A stretch of 64,000 nucleotides of DNA from Klenkia taihuensis (GCF_900112525.1 NZ_FOMD01000003.1:558001-622000), one strand, 5' to 3'. Numbered from the stretch's first letter, positions 11,767 through 24,821 are shown. Notes: generated by a model from the letters alone, not told the origin. Program-made: numbers and translations.

Positions 11767-13170
11767 TCAGCTCGTGGCGGAGGTGCGCCAGCCCTGCTGG
11801 TAGGTCTCCCGCGCCATGGCGGCGTACGGAGTCGGGCTCACGATGGCCCGGACCCGGAACTGCTCGTGCGGCTCGACGGTGGTCTTGCCCGAGCCGCCGT
11901 CCGGCTCACCCCAGACCACGGTCACCTCGGCGCCCAGCGGCACGTCGGGGGCGACGGTGGCCAGCGACAGCGCGGTGCGCTCGTTCGCGCTGTAGCCGGT
12001 GAACATGGAGACGCCGACCACCGTGCCGTCGGCGTCGAGCACCGAGTCGAAGTTCGAGGAGCCGTAGTTGGCGTTGGGCAGGTCGAAGAACTGGTAGCCC
12101 GGGCCCGGCCGCACCGGGGAGGCGAGCAGCTCGGCGACGTCGTCGGCGTTCCAGGCCAGGGTGACCTTGCGGCGCTGGGTGGCCGGGTCGACCGCCTCCA
12201 GGGCGTCGCGGCCGATGAAGTCGTGGTCGAACTTCACGAAGCTGCCGTACCCCAGCTCCCAGGGGTTGGTGTAGTAGTCCTCGATGTCCGAGGAGACGAA
12301 GCTGCCGGCCAGGGCGTTGGTGGCCTCGTAGCCCTGCGCGGGCAGCCACTCGCGGTAGGCCCGGAGCTCCTCGCCGGTGTAGATCGCCGGCAGCGGGGAG
12401 GGGATCCAGCCCGACTCCAGGGTGTTGCAGCTGTACGCCCGCGCGCCGGCGGGCTCCAGACCGAACTCCGCGCCGGCGTCCAGGATCGCCTCGCGGACCT
12501 TGTCGTAGCTGGCGTAGGGGCCCCAGATCTCCAGGCCCGGCGCGCCGGCCATGCCGTGCCGCAGCGTGCGGACCTCCTCGCCGGCGATGGTCATCGTGCC
12601 CATCCGGAAGAACTTGACCTTCTCGACGGTGCCGCCGTTGACCTTCTCGATGACCTCCCAGGCGCGGGGACCCTGGATCTGGAAGCGCCACACGTCCCGG
12701 GTGACCTGCTTGCCGTAGGGCCGGGACGGCGACCGCGGGTCGTTGCGGACGTCGACGGCGTAGCCGCCGGTCTCGGCCTGGAACATCAGCCAGTTGGCGA
12801 CCGGTGCGCGGCCGACGTAGACGAACTCGTCCTCGGCGAGGCGGAAGAGGATGCCGTCGCCGATGACGCCGCCGTCGGGCGCGACCGGCACGAACTGCTT
12901 GGCCGAGTCGACCGGGAACACCGCGGTCGAGTTGATGCCGGTGTCGGTGAACAGCTTCAGCGCGTCGGCGCCGGACACCCAGAGGTTGGTCATGTGGTGG
13001 GACTGGTCGAACAGCACCGCGGTCTGCTGCCAGGCCTTCACCTCGCGCCGGAAGTTGGTGAACTCCGACGGGACGACGGGGTAGATGTAGGTGCCCAGCT
13101 GCGAGTTGCGGAGCAGCTCCACGGTGCTGCCCGCCTGGTCCAGCACGTCCTGCAGGTTGTTGGCCGTCAT
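11767..13170 (-). CDS. Tetrahydrofolate-dependent aromatic O-demethylase (LigM/DesA-like, GcvT family), paralog 1
   Basis: A 467-residue GcvT-fold aminomethyltransferase-family protein; the LigM and DesA enzymes of Sphingobium are of similar length (about 470). They move the methyl of an aromatic methoxy group to THF, giving 5-methyl-THF and a phenol. Visible signatures are [15 protein letters not shown] near residue 55, [16 protein letters not shown] near 205, [12 protein letters not shown], and [13 protein letters not shown] near 400. It is divergent from ligAB and is the sister of the gene at 17012, which is followed by metF. GcvT itself is about 370 residues and its glycine-cleavage partners are absent here, which argues against a glycine role. 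Substrate (syringate, 3-O-methylgallate or vanillate) cannot be assigned from sequence. Confidence 0.8.
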
Positions 13171-13210
13171 GTCCTACCCGTTCTCGTCACGCCCCGGGTC
13201 GCGCCCGGGG

Positions 13211-13226
13211 GACAGCGGTCGCTGTC
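13211..13226 (-). promoter_or_regulatory. Palindrome in the 5' leader of O-demethylase 1
   Basis: GACAGCGGTCGCTGTC is a perfect 7-2-7 inverted repeat lying between the proposed -10 box and the ATG at 13170. Its right arm can also pair with a GGGGGAC stretch nearby, giving alternative leader structures. It may be an operator for an aromatic-responsive repressor or an RNA hairpin. Confidence 0.4.
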
Positions 13227-13243
13227 GCGGTGGTCCCCCAGCG

Positions 13244-13250
13244 ACGCTAG
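13244..13250 (-). promoter_or_regulatory. Proposed -10 box CTAGCGT of O-demethylase 1
   Basis: On the minus strand CTAGCGTCG lies about 75 bases before ATG 13170. The identical 9-mer occurs at three other promoters of the aromatic cluster (13379, 16943 and, on the minus strand, 24863). CTAG is rare in DNA of this composition. Confidence 0.5.
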
Positions 13251-22664: not shown

Positions 22665-22678
22665 GGCGGTCTCCGTTC

Positions 22679-23383
22679 TCAGCGGGTCAGTCGGTCGAGC
22701 AGGGCGGCGAGCTCGTCGGGGGCGGTGACCATGGCCTCGTGGCCGGTGGCGATCTCGTGCACCGGCCAGCCCTTCGCCCGGGCCCGGTCGGCCTGGGCGG
22801 CGAAGACCCGCATCCAGTCGGTGCACTCGACGAACGCCGCGGGCACGGCGTCGACGGCGCCGGTGAGCCGCAGCGGGTCGAGGTAGGTCCGCCACGGGTG
22901 CGGCGTGAGCTTGGGGGTCAGCCAGTCGACGTCGGCCTGGTCGGTCACCCCGAGCACCGAGAGCTTGCGGACGGCGACCAGCCAGCCGAACCCCTGCTGC
23001 TCGGCGGACTCGGCCCAGTGGTGGGCCACGGTCTCCGGCAGCAGGTCGCGGGCGCACTCGCCGTCCTCGCCGACGAACGCGTCCAGGTGCACCCGCAGCG
23101 CGACCCGCTCGGGCACCCGGTCGGCGACGGCGGTGACCACCTGACCGGCGTAGCTGTGCCCGACGAGCACGACGTCGCGCAGGTCCAGGGTCTCCAGCAC
23201 CCGGACGACGTCCTCGACGTGGGTGTCCAGCCCGACCATCGGGGTGAGCAGGTGCGCCCGCTCCGACAGGCCGGTGAGCGTGGGGGCGAGCACGGCGTGC
23301 CCCGCGGCGCGCAGCGGTGCGGCGACGCGGTCCCAGCACCACCCGCCGTGCCAGGCGCCGTGCACCAGGACGAACGTGCTCAC
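22679..23383 (-). CDS. Alpha/beta hydrolase, methylesterase-like
   Basis: A 234-residue serine hydrolase. It opens with FVLVHGAWHGGWCWDRV, resembling plant methylesterases such as the salicylate methylesterase group, and has nucleophile elbow VGHSYAG and a C-terminal His in ATGHEAM. GTG 23383 overlaps the ligK-like stop by four bases. If the dioxygenase opens 3-O-methylgallate directly, the product keeps the methyl as an ester (CHMOD in Sphingobium); a methylesterase in the same operon would fit that branch. This is inference; other esters are possible. Confidence 0.82.
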   Translation of the reverse strand: MSTFVLVHGAWHGGWCWDRVAAPLRAAGHAVLAPTLTGLSERAHLLTPMVGLDTHVEDVVRVLETLDLRDVVLVGHSYAGQVVTAVADRVPERVALRVHLDAFVGEDGECARDLLPETVAHHWAESAEQQGFGWLVAVRKLSVLGVTDQADVDWLTPKLTPHPWRTYLDPLRLTGAVDAVPAAFVECTDWMRVFAAQADRARAKGWPVHEIATGHEAMVTAPDELAALLDRLTR

Positions 23384-24099
23384 GCGTCACCGTCGGCTGC
23401 GTCGCCGTCCACCGCGTCGCCGTCCAGGTAGGTGACCCCGAGCCGTTCCAGGGTGGGGCGCAGGTCGTAGAGGTCCAGGCCGAGGACGCCGTCGCGGAAC
23501 TGCTGCCGCTTGGCCTCCTCGTTCGCCTCCCGGGCGGCCGCGGCGGCCACCACGGCGGGGACGTCGGCCAGCGGCACGCACATCACCCCGTCGTCGTCGG
23601 CGACCACGGCGTCCCCGGGGGTGATCAGCCGGCCGGCGACGACGACGGGCACGTTGACCGACCCGGGGACCGCCTTGGCCGTGCCCTGCGCGTGCACCGC
23701 GCGGGACCACACGGGGAAGCCCATCGCGGTGAGCTCGGCGACGTCCCGGACACCGGCGTCGGTGACCAGCCCGAGGACGCCGCGCGCGGCCAGCTGGGTG
23801 GCGAACAGTTCGCCGAACATGCCGTCGGTGCTGCGCGAGGTGGTGGCGATGACCAGCACGTCGCCGGCCCGGCACTGCTCGATGCAGGCGTGCACCATCA
23901 GGTTGTCGCCGGGGTGGGAGAGCACGGTGACCGCGCGGCCCGCGATCCGGGCGCCGGGGTAGATCGGCCGCAGCTCCGGACCGACCAGACCGGTGCGGCC
24001 GGCGGCCTCGTGCGCGGTGGCGACGCCGGAGCGGGCCAGGGCGGCGAGGTCCTCGGGGGCCGGCCCCCTCGACGTGCGGACGACGACGTGCCGGCTCAC
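23380..24099 (-). CDS. 4-carboxy-4-hydroxy-2-oxoadipate aldolase-like protein (LigK/GalC; RraA fold)
   Basis: A 239-residue RraA-fold class II aldolase. GTG 24099 is chosen because it overlaps the upstream gene by four bases and begins the conserved sequence. It has SGVATAHEAAGRTGL, PGDNLMVHACIEQCRAGDVLVIA, the metal and substrate site LVTDAGVRDVAEL, and GDAVVADDDGVMCVP. LigK/GalC enzymes split CHA into pyruvate and oxaloacetate, the last step of gallate and protocatechuate 4,5-cleavage. RraA and oxaloacetate decarboxylases share the fold, but the longer C-terminal region (~230 residues in all) and operon context favour the aldolase. Confidence 0.85.
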   Translation of the reverse strand: MSRHVVVRTSRGPAPEDLAALARSGVATAHEAAGRTGLVGPELRPIYPGARIAGRAVTVLSHPGDNLMVHACIEQCRAGDVLVIATTSRSTDGMFGELFATQLAARGVLGLVTDAGVRDVAELTAMGFPVWSRAVHAQGTAKAVPGSVNVPVVVAGRLITPGDAVVADDDGVMCVPLADVPAVVAAAAAREANEEAKRQQFRDGVLGLDLYDLRPTLERLGVTYLDGDAVDGDAADGDA

Positions 24100-24821
24100 C
24101 GGAGCTCCGACCCGACCGAGGGGAAGGTGCGGCGGAAGGCCTCGGCGTGGGTGACCTGCGCGGGGGCGCCGTTGCGGCGGGCCTGCACCCCGCGGCGGGT
24201 GCCGAGGTCGGTGTAGTAGTCGACGAGGTGGCCCTGGCCGCCGGCCATGCAGCGCATCGCCTCGAGCTTGCGGTCCCAGACGGGGGAGACGTCCAGCAGC
24301 AGGTCGGGGAGGAAGCCGCAGACCTCGGGCTGGTGCGGCTCGTACTGGAACACCTGGGCGGCGCCCAGCGGCGTCGTCGAGGGGTCGTGGCCGTGGGCCT
24401 GGGCGACCATGCGGGTGCGCAGGGTCGTGGCGTGGGCCAGGTCGTGGTCGGTGTTGTACGGGTCGCGGGCGACGTGGGTGAGCAGGACGTCGGGGGAGTG
24501 CTCGCGCAGGATGTCGACCAGGCGGTCCTCGGCGGCGTCGTCGACCCGCAGCGGGTAGTCCCCGAGGTCCAGGAACTCCACGCTGGCGCCCAGCGCCGCG
24601 GCCGCCGCGGTGGACTCCTCGCGGCGGGCGTCCTTGACCCCCTGCAGCGTCATGCCCTCGCGCTGCCACAGACCCTGGGACTCCCCGCGCTCGCCGAAGC
24701 TGAGGCAGACCACGTGGACGGCCGCGCCCCGGCCGGCGTACAGCGCCAGCGCACCGCCGGCGCGCCAGACGAAGTCGGCGGCGTGCGCGCTGACGACCAG
24801 CACGGAGCCTGGGTCGGCCAT
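24096..24821 (-). CDS. 4-oxalomesaconate hydratase-like protein (GalB; PIG-L/LmbE family)
   Basis: A 241-residue PIG-L/LmbE-fold protein. ATG 24821 has GGAAGG eight bases upstream. The metal motif normally AHPDD reads SAHAADF, keeping His13 and Asp16, and further metal or acid residues are in LTHVARDPYNTDHDLAH. GalB of Pseudomonas putida is a zinc-dependent LmbE-family protein that hydrates 4-oxalomesaconate to CHA instead of deacetylating a sugar. Directly upstream of a LigK-like aldolase, that is the favoured role. Mycothiol deacetylases (MshB, Mca) share the fold but are longer (about 290-300) and keep HPDD. First gene of a five-gene operon. Confidence 0.82.
   Translation of the reverse strand: MADPGSVLVVSAHAADFVWRAGGALALYAGRGAAVHVVCLSFGERGESQGLWQREGMTLQGVKDARREESTAAAAALGASVEFLDLGDYPLRVDDAAEDRLVDILREHSPDVLLTHVARDPYNTDHDLAHATTLRTRMVAQAHGHDPSTTPLGAAQVFQYEPHQPEVCGFLPDLLLDVSPVWDRKLEAMRCMAGGQGHLVDYYTDLGTRRGVQARRNGAPAQVTHAEAFRRTFPSVGSELR

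Follow-up and report, generated by a model that had tools for sequence, protein, structure and literature searches.

A Candidate Gene Module for Methoxylated Aromatic Acids in Klenkia taihuensis, with a Putative Third Clade of Tetrahydrofolate-Dependent O-Demethylases and Extra Folate Genes

Introduction

A 64,000-nucleotide stretch of the Klenkia taihuensis genome (GCF_900112525.1 NZ_FOMD01000003.1:558001-622000; hereafter the window), which is part of contig C5 of a 4.3-Mb genome, contains a compact group of genes that, on balance, we regard as a co-regulated module that acts on methoxylated aromatic acids, with syringate and vanillate as the most likely substrates. The two DEMETHYLASES of the module are GcvT-family proteins encoded at 11767-13170 and 16970-18373, the former of the LigM type and the latter designated here as DesL. 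We see about an even chance that DesL represents, in Actinobacteria, a third clade of aromatic tetrahydrofolate (THF)-dependent O-demethylases, that such modules have repeatedly and independently recruited folate-biosynthesis genes, so that induction of the pathway builds its cofactor pool, and that a muconolactone-isomerase-like protein (mli) takes the isomerase step, perhaps that of GalD, after LigAB and a methylesterase.

Hardwood lignin consists in large part of syringyl units. In the literature cited here, as far as it was available, THF-dependent demethylases are characterised mainly from sphingomonads. A preliminary description of the region, made from the sequence alone, had proposed an actinobacterial module for THF-dependent aromatic O-demethylation with its own one-carbon (C1) oxidation and its own folate-making genes, and profiles and gene order support that proposal. 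Pfam and NCBIfam searches place every gene family it named between 11767 and 24830, namely a pair of LigM/DesA-like GcvT proteins, LigAB, GalB-like and LigK-like proteins, MetF, a FolD-like protein, PurU, an FchA-like protein, FolP and FolC. New in the present analysis are an alpha/beta hydrolase (abh), mli, a short-chain dehydrogenase/reductase (SDR; sdr), a Liv-type transporter, a two-component system and the status of the folate genes as extra copies.

The proposed route has five steps. Uptake of the acid would be through the Liv-type ABC transporter, and four units marked by the element CTAGCGT would be switched on by a two-component pair, a GAF-HisKA_3 kinase and a NarL-type regulator. 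DesL would then transfer a methyl group of syringate to THF, giving 3-O-methylgallate (3-MGA) and 5-methyl-THF, and LigM would do likewise with vanillate and perhaps with some 3-MGA. In the third step, the MetF-, FolD-, FchA- and PurU-like proteins would convert methyl-THF through formyl-THF to formate and free THF. In the fourth, LigAB would open 3-MGA to CHMOD, abh would hydrolyse the ester, mli would isomerise the product, and GalB and GalC would deliver pyruvate and oxaloacetate. Finally, the extra folate genes (here folP and folC; in relatives pabB, folP, folC and folE) would enlarge the THF pool of the demethylases. While the identities and order of the genes are observed, all five functional steps are ones that we infer from sequence, gene order and co-occurrence.

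Organization and Distribution of the Module

The grouping of the desL and galB genes is not due to chance, since stop/start overlaps join them. On the plus strand, desL, metF, folD, purU and fchA overlap at 18373, 19251-19254, 20168-20171 and 21037-21040, and desL is translationally coupled to the MetF-, FolD-, PurU- and FchA-like genes. On the minus strand, galB, galC and abh overlap at 24096-24099 and 23380-23383, and mli and sdr at 22389-22392; the 14-bp gap between abh and mli is the sole non-overlapping junction of the galB-galC-abh-mli-sdr run. The ligM gene is divergent from ligA-ligB-folP, and folC from desL. The larger module begins near 2747, with the transporter and the two-component system upstream of the 11767-24830 block, and comprises the following features:

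2747..3541, plus strand: livG-like ABC transporter ATPase (PF00005, PF12399; 72% identical to livG beside a family relative's module), a predicted aromatic-acid uptake component
3538..4248, plus strand: livF-like ABC ATPase (PF00005; 74% to the relative's livF)
4249..5130, plus strand: livH-like permease (PF02653; 62% to the relative's livH)
5241..6233, plus strand: livM-like permease (PF02653)
6230..7507, plus strand: ABC-transporter substrate-binding protein (PF13458, 155.7 bits)
7532..9130, plus strand: PAS/GAF-HisKA_3 sensor kinase, with homologues in 26/26 DesL-bearing family genomes and in Rhodococcus opacus
9127..9810, plus strand: NarL-type response regulator (PF00072, PF00196), overlapping the kinase stop
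11767..13170, minus strand: LigM-type O-demethylase, predicted for vanillate/3-MGA (NF047885, 5tl4, tree)
13244..13250, minus strand: CTAGCGT promoter-like element facing ligM
13379..13385, plus strand: CTAGCGT element facing ligA
13392..13742, plus strand: LigA-type small subunit (PF07746)
13735..14592, plus strand: LigB-type catalytic subunit, class III extradiol dioxygenase (PF02900)
14597..15475, plus strand: extra FolP, dihydropteroate synthase (DHPS; TIGR01496 over cut-off)
15491..16801, minus strand: extra FolC (TIGR01499 over cut-off)
16943..16949, plus strand: CTAGCGT element facing desL
16970..18373 (start possibly 17009), plus strand: DesL, predicted third-clade THF-dependent O-demethylase (DesA model, tree, active-site columns)
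18373..19254, plus strand: divergent MetF, putatively oxidising methyl-THF (PF02219); overlaps the desL stop
19251..20171, plus strand: FolD, methylene-THF dehydrogenase/cyclohydrolase (PF02882, PF00763)
20168..21040, plus strand: PurU, 10-formyl-THF deformylase (TIGR00655)
21037..21663, plus strand: FchA-like, putative methenyl-THF cyclohydrolase (PF04961)
21673..22392, minus strand: SDR oxidoreductase, sdr (PF13561); overlaps mli
22389..22664, minus strand: mli, muconolactone-isomerase-like, putative isomerase of the ring-opened product (PF02426)
22679..23383, minus strand: abh, alpha/beta hydrolase, putative CHMOD methyl-esterase (PF12697)
23380..24099, minus strand: GalC/LigK-type aldolase (TIGR02798, NF006731)
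24096..24830, minus strand: GalB-type hydratase, PIG-L fold (5cgz)
24857..24863, minus strand: CTAGCGT element facing galB

An S15/PepX-type hydrolase gene also lies near the module, both in the window (392-2626) and in another family genome (L187:5617-7287).

The module is patchily distributed. Within the genus, three of the nine genomes searched have strong LigM/DesL matches, one of them the window's, and within the family Geodermatophilaceae 31 of 112 genomes do. The 26 DesL-bearing family genomes considered below are all those that the family profile search showed besides the window's genome. Relatives were otherwise taken from the best 80 of 573 confirmed stretches (79 loci; more exist), a set that leans to DesL kin. 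The named loci span at most 10 kb on either side (15 kb for R. opacus), several being shorter, and absences there are weak evidence; some of them come from the same genomes as family loci (Klenkia terrae is both L035 and L087). Outside the family, the R. opacus plasmid NZ_CP082159 holds ligM, galC, galB, desL, metF, purU, folD, ligAB, abh, mli, the regulator and the kinase, and further folC, pabB, folP, folE, fdhF and fdhD. This plasmid was the top record in plasmid searches with mli and abh (among the best 12 of 141 and the best 12 of 185 records, respectively).

The Two GcvT-Family Proteins, LigM and DesL

By model, structure match and tree, the protein at 11767-13170 is LigM, with predicted substrates. 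It scores 893 bits on the LigM model NF047885 (cut-off 580) and 610 on the DesA model, under the cut-off of 800, and matches the LigM structure of Sphingobium SYK-6 (5tl4) with 724 bits; the NF047885 cut-off is non-exclusive, six DesA-branch rows tested also scoring 594-639. DesL misses both cut-offs, with 565 bits on the DesA model NF047633 and 496 on the LigM model, and all four DesL-side relatives tested score 484-574 on NF047633. Four of six DesA-branch rows pass that model (840-905; three from the sphingomonad side and that of Acrocarpospora) and two miss it (L142, 748; L121, 797.6), so the cut-off alone is not decisive for DesL.

The separation of DesL is clearer in a tree of GcvT-family proteins (quick method, midpoint root), whose 94 rows are the matched regions of 55 of the 79 loci (24 left out), 35 LigM-type matches at >=58% identity from named loci, and four proteins of the window and R. 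opacus. In this tree, 26 DesL rows and six ungrouped actinobacterial rows are split from LigM and DesA together by a 100-supported branch, and the LigM group forms one side of a 100-supported branch. Among the best 80 of 573 stretches, DesL shares 50-54% identity with the DesA-branch loci, and its nearest named relatives are those of Klenkia sp. PcliD-1-E (92%) and K. terrae (89%). Five alignment columns follow the same division, at positions that we take to be the active-site residues Y29, Y31, H60, R122 and Y247 in SYK-6 LigM numbering. They read YYHRY in all 40 LigM-group rows (four of them duplicates), NYHRY in 9/9 DesA-group rows and (M/H/S/T/A)-F-H-(H/W)-Y in 26/26 DesL rows; the arginine is kept in every LigM- and DesA-group row compared and replaced in DesL. 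As judged from the alignment, DesL retains H60 and Y247, which are presumably catalytic, within an altered pocket.

The identification of DesL as DesA is not supported on account of the missed DesA cut-off, the separate actinobacterial clade and the different active-site residues. A glycine- or dimethylglycine-cleaving function, which the preliminary description had named as the outcome that would speak against its proposal, is rejected for both proteins: they score far lower on GcvT, sarcosine-oxidase and DMSP-demethylase models than on the LigM/DesA models, they are far closer to the LigM structure than to GcvT or dimethylglycine-oxidase structures, and the lead of the LigM/DesA models and structures amounts to hundreds of bits.

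Related proteins also occur in other settings. One locus (L066, G091:C1:1261000-1280999) carries three distant DesL-like paralogues (46-51% identical to the DesL queries) together with folP, folC, folD, purU and metF within 15 kb, and may be a second type of folate-equipped methyl-transfer cluster. One family genome (G055) has 13 DesA-model matches, eight with E below 1e-70 among the matches listed, which suggests a specialist in methoxylated compounds.

Ring Opening and the Fate of the Second Methyl Group

LigA and LigB are separate subunits, both over their Pfam cut-offs (PF07746, 122 bits; PF02900, 231 bits). LigB scores 374.5 on NF009903 (cut-off 317) and 317.7 on the gallate dioxygenase model (cut-off 412), and its structure matches are 339 bits to the protocatechuate 4,5-dioxygenase 1b4u and 256 to the gallate dioxygenase 3wku; LigA, with 103.6 on TIGR02792, is just below the cut-off of 108.6. 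Further downstream, the hydratase is in sequence close to Pseudomonas putida GalB rather than to deacetylases (266 bits to 5cgz, next best 30), and the aldolase barely reaches TIGR02798 (304.6 vs a cut-off of 304.5) and scores 319.6 on NF006731 (cut-off 179). The structure matches of abh include hydroxynitrile lyases and the plant methylesterase SABP2, and its GHSYxG motif is present in all four aligned rows, while mli belongs to the muconolactone-isomerase family PF02426 (51 bits to 1mli).

The genes abh and mli are tied to ligAB. Together with ligA, ligB, the kinase and the regulator they occur in 26/26 DesL-bearing family genomes, and abh, mli and ligB lie inside one 20-kb stretch in all 26. 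Seven ring genes were also scored in the 80 named loci at identity thresholds of 38-60%, within the stretch read per locus, and 33 loci carry at least one. Here, mli at >=60% identity is found in 13 loci, all with ligB and abh and without c23o and galD, and c23o with galD but without ligB, abh and mli in 12. The remaining layouts are c23o alone of the five (n=3), abh with c23o and galD (n=2), and single cases of ligB with abh, ligB alone and ligB with c23o. Eight of the 13 mli loci are Geodermatophilaceae that overlap the family set; the other five are from Nocardia, Saccharopolyspora, Saccharomonospora, Acrocarpospora and Rhodococcus. In the window's genome, GalD (NF033377) gave no match among three candidates scored, and c23o has no close relative, the best score on TIGR03211 being 102 bits (cut-off 320), compared with 301 bits for the family's module copy of c23o.

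The window thus holds, side by side, a LigAB-like dioxygenase, an alpha/beta hydrolase and an isomerase-like protein, the combination expected of a linear 3-MGA route, and abh and mli would fit the ester-hydrolysis and isomerisation steps after LigAB. Because abh-mli is tied to ligAB and GalD has no match in the genome, the linear route appears likelier than a double demethylation via gallate. Syringate would therefore undergo one THF-dependent demethylation, and its second methyl group would leave as methanol, in the manner reported for Novosphingobium aromaticivorans (PMC8091115) and Pseudomonas sp. NGC7 (PMC12314914).

The alternative that survives best, albeit an unlikely one, is the route of the preliminary description, in which DesL and LigM demethylate syringate twice, LigAB cleaves gallate to oxalomesaconate, mli replaces GalD as tautomerase, GalB and GalC finish the pathway and abh serves another ester. 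In its favor, LigM is a strong match to its model (893 bits) and lies in the same 20-kb stretch as DesL in 25/26 family genomes (about 19 kb away in the other), LigM of SYK-6 is reported to act on 3-MGA (PMC6888825), and with no GalD match in the genome some tautomerase may be needed. It is weakened by the presence of abh with mli and ligAB throughout the family set, whereas gallate cleavage requires no esterase, and by the report that 3-MGA demethylation is not the major route in N. aromaticivorans (PMC8091115). Under the linear route, LigM may serve vanillate or a gallate side route, and some flux through gallate is compatible with it.

Other genes of the genome may act on the same compounds. 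Adjacent intradiol dioxygenase matches at C10:851419 and C10:852213 are probably PcaHG, a route for protocatechuate. A VanA_C-family oxygenase (G000:C7:675730-676320, 146 bits; a weaker one at C5:532271) is a possible second route for vanillate, and the suggestion that the THF route stands in place of VanAB is consequently not established. At one locus, a small gene for a 2Fe-2S ferredoxin (Fer2; L037:14189-14488) lies between the regulator and abh-mli-ligAB, with similar genes in relatives, and its product perhaps reactivates the dioxygenase. Microbacterium sp. CH12i (L099) encodes a fused LigAB (432 aa), a 4-sulfomuconolactone-hydrolase-like protein, an abh relative (~40%) and DesL, apparently a third downstream layout.

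Substrates of the Module

Acrocarpospora (L159) provides the strongest hint that DesL demethylates syringate. There, a protein over the DesA cut-off (840-844 bits) occupies the position of DesL, next to homologous abh, mli, galB, galC, kinase, regulator, metF and purU genes. This replacement of DesL by a DesA-type protein in the same setting suggests that DesL does the job of DesA.

Several observations weigh against the syringate reading and the linear route. In the Acrocarpospora case, LigAB is only 41/51% identical to that of the window, and no DesL was seen in the 21-kb stretch, the rest of that genome not having been searched. DesL has neither Tyr29 nor a residue equivalent to Arg122, which is replaced by H or W in 26/26 rows; if Arg122 binds the substrate carboxylate, as we take it to do in SYK-6 LigM, DesL may act on something other than a benzoate. 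LigB most resembles protocatechuate 4,5-dioxygenase, which makes protocatechuate a possible substrate. A syringate route with a single demethylation does not need the retained LigM, and sdr, which overlaps mli and resembles SDR genes adjoining the Nocardia aurea and R. opacus modules, is given no step in the proposed route. Within the stretches read, the galD gene occurs in 6/30 and c23o in 3/30 family genomes (3 and 2 of the 26 with DesL), and hence the galD/c23o and abh/mli layouts can share a family genome. The comparison of abh and mli with the DesC/DesD and MgaC/MgaD proteins described below is by description only. Lastly, of the 17 relatives' loci listed, 11 lack CTAGCGT, among them all five outside Geodermatophilaceae.

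It is conceivable, if improbable, that DesL is not a syringate enzyme and that its altered pocket accommodates a different methoxy-aromatic, such as one lacking a free carboxylate, leaving the benzoates to LigM. The separate tree group, the differing residues at the Y29, Y31 and R122 columns in 26/26 rows and the two missed NCBIfam cut-offs would agree with this, but the DesA-type protein in the same setting in Acrocarpospora and the downstream genes, which are those of 3-MGA/gallate breakdown, speak against it. A module for vanillate only, with LigM forming protocatechuate, LigAB opening it, the SDR oxidising the semialdehyde and abh acting as lactone hydrolase, draws on the likeness of LigB to protocatechuate 4,5-dioxygenase and on the coupling of sdr to mli, but is very hard to credit when protocatechuate probably has another route through the C10 pair, no LigI-like hydrolase is found among the cluster proteins scanned (no genome-wide search was made) and DesL is left without a role.

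The C1 Branch from Methyl-THF to Formate

The proteins encoded behind desL would carry the methyl group from THF to formate. MetF is called divergent because it scores only 50 bits on TIGR00676 (cut-off 293.7), with 34.7 on PF02219 (cut-off 24). Both FolD domains (PF02882, PF00763) are over cut-off, and PurU scores 332 bits on TIGR00655 (cut-off 286). The FchA-like protein is over the cut-off of PF04961 (131 bits) and reaches 97 bits on the FchA equivalog model (cut-off 275). Elsewhere, the genome has a second FolD, one ordinary MetF (314 bits) and a further divergent MetF-family match besides that of the module. No match to formate-THF ligase (FTHFS) was found in the window's genome, and PurU rather than a LigH-type ligase would therefore close the loop. 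Formate dehydrogenase gave three matches in this genome, all below cut-off; the R. opacus module carries fdhF and fdhD.

Two further observations concern C1 genes. The third MetF-family protein (G000:C5:522075-522623; L204:9749-10747) has a partial MTHFR C-terminal domain, lies beside a Fer2 match and sits 36 kb upstream of the window. Genes of the cobalamin-independent methionine synthase II family occur near modules in R. opacus (L165:30223-31323) and in L096, L097, L099, L101, L102, L107 and L112, those near modules being 32-38% identical to the R. opacus one, and could provide another outlet for methyl groups.

Folate-Making Genes

FolP and FolC of the module are far over their cut-offs (TIGR01496, 295 bits vs 162.6; TIGR01499, 318 bits vs 162.65). 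The possibility that they are the only copies of the cell is rejected, since the genome has three FolP and two FolC over cut-off. The third FolP (G000:C7:752405-753172) is 40% identical to the window's, has an altered GGESTRPG-type motif and may not be a working DHPS.

Folate-making genes accompany DesL in the family. At >=50% identity, pabB, folP or folC is found near the cluster in 24/26 DesL-bearing family genomes (pabB 22, folP 13, folC 1), within one or two stretches; a second downstream stretch was read in 17 of the 26, and this figure rests on more sequence than the controls. The two genomes without such a gene are G002, where the contig end was reached, and G065. At equal length, the first 20-kb stretch carries a folate-making gene in 16/26 DesL family genomes vs 0/20 control 20-kb stretches, which were taken from 19 genomes and in which the sole match to any of 30 queries is one 28% abh match. 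Among the named loci, a folate-gene match is present in 11/25 on the DesL side (10 at >=50% identity) vs 1/55 of the others (a 40% pabB), and none was seen at the six Sphingomonadales loci of the set (L148, L151, L155, L161, L162, L163).

The identity of the recruited gene varies. Between ligB and desL, the Klenkia loci carry different folate genes, namely folP and folC in the window, folP in PcliD-1-E and pabB in K. terrae. The single Blastococcus operon that was scanned has a pabB fused to a pabC-type domain, and plasmid pRop44186_a of R. opacus DSM 44186 has folC, pabB, folP and folE in or beside the module. There seems to have been more than one recruitment of folate genes, because the R. 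opacus cluster copies share only 38% (FolP) and 33% (FolC) identity with those of the window, while the window FolP shares 64% with one of the other FolP proteins in the same genome. The window FolP is also 60-66% identical to the cluster copies of other family genera and 73% to FolP of another Klenkia. A dedicated FolP lineage is not supported, and these values, a comparison by identity only, point to separate recruitments. A partial literature search found no paper linking aromatic O-demethylase clusters with extra dihydropteroate or aminodeoxychorismate synthase.

Regulation and Uptake

The 64-kb window has four copies of the element CTAGCGT, one upstream of and facing each of ligM, ligA, desL and galB. 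For the 9-mer CTAGCGTCG, 0.42 matches are expected and 0/100 shuffles reached four, a figure that is not a blind test, as the element was found by comparing the same intergenic stretches. The 7-mer CTAGCGT is present twice each in two other Klenkia loci, before ligA and ligM (L035) and before ligA and desL (L036), and is commoner in cluster loci (38 in 33 stretches) than in controls (5 in 20). By eye, a GTCA...GATC-like element lies ~35 bases upstream of many CTAGCGT sites in relatives. Taken together, CTAGCGT likely marks a shared activator-driven promoter. As a shared operator, GTCATYCG was rejected (4 matches vs 3.85 expected, not significant), and a search for inverted repeats in two intergenic stretches gave one weak pair only. 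Homologues of the Liv transporter, the kinase and the regulator adjoin the module in relatives.

Comparison with Known Systems

The published systems compared here are described as far as the available parts of the respective papers reach. The module shares THF-dependent GcvT-family demethylases, MetF and LigAB- and LigK-type downstream enzymes with SYK-6, in which metF lies in the ligM operon (PMC6888825). The ligM operon of SYK-6 further includes LigH, a formyl-THF synthetase (PMC6888825), whereas Klenkia has PurU and no FTHFS match; in Klenkia, moreover, the DesL clade takes the place of SYK-6 DesA, and the hydratase is of the GalB (PIG-L) type.

For the ring, LigAB is reported to open 3-MGA to the methyl ester CHMOD, and DesC and DesD of N. 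aromaticivorans are proposed to act on CHMOD (PMC8091115, PMC6888825). In Pseudomonas sp. NGC7, a linear syringate pathway runs through VanA1B1, MgaAB, MgaC, MgaD and GalDBC, in which MgaAB is LigAB-like, MgaC is an alpha/beta hydrolase and MgaD a predicted isomerase (PMC12314914). The likeness to Klenkia lies in a LigAB-like enzyme, an alpha/beta hydrolase and an isomerase feeding GalB and GalC. The differences are that NGC7 demethylates by VanA1B1 to formaldehyde, whereas the Klenkia module would depend on THF, that MgaD is SnoaL-like and mli muconolactone-isomerase-like, and that NGC7 has GalD (PMC12314914).

The closest precedent for a C1 gene set oxidising a THF-bound methyl group is pCMU01, the chloromethane plasmid of Methylobacterium extorquens CM4, with extra folD, purU, folC2 and a divergent metF2 (26% identity) (PMC3621897). 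A set of this cmu type, that is, extra metF2, folD, purU and folC beside a methyl-transfer gene, is present in the window, with paralogues elsewhere in the genome for folC, folD and metF. The plasmid differs in methyl donor and corrinoid chemistry, and in the available part of the paper folE, folK, folP and pabABC are described as core genes only (PMC3621897), whereas DesL modules also recruit pabB, folP and folE.

Actinobacterial LigM and DesA-like proteins have already been reported from genomes, in particular from thermophilic actinobacterial metagenome-assembled genomes, one of which has metF and ligH (PMC9296663). The DesA-like clade of that report emerges from the DesA branch, with one member 69.5% identical to SYK-6 DesA (PMC9296663), unlike DesL, which falls outside LigM and DesA.

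Significance

If this reading is correct, the module would form a compact and transferable unit, one copy of which is on a plasmid of R. opacus, that combines a distinct demethylase clade, a branch leading C1 units to formate and folate genes of its own. It would also mean that selection can act on cofactor supply itself as a component of a catabolic gene cluster.

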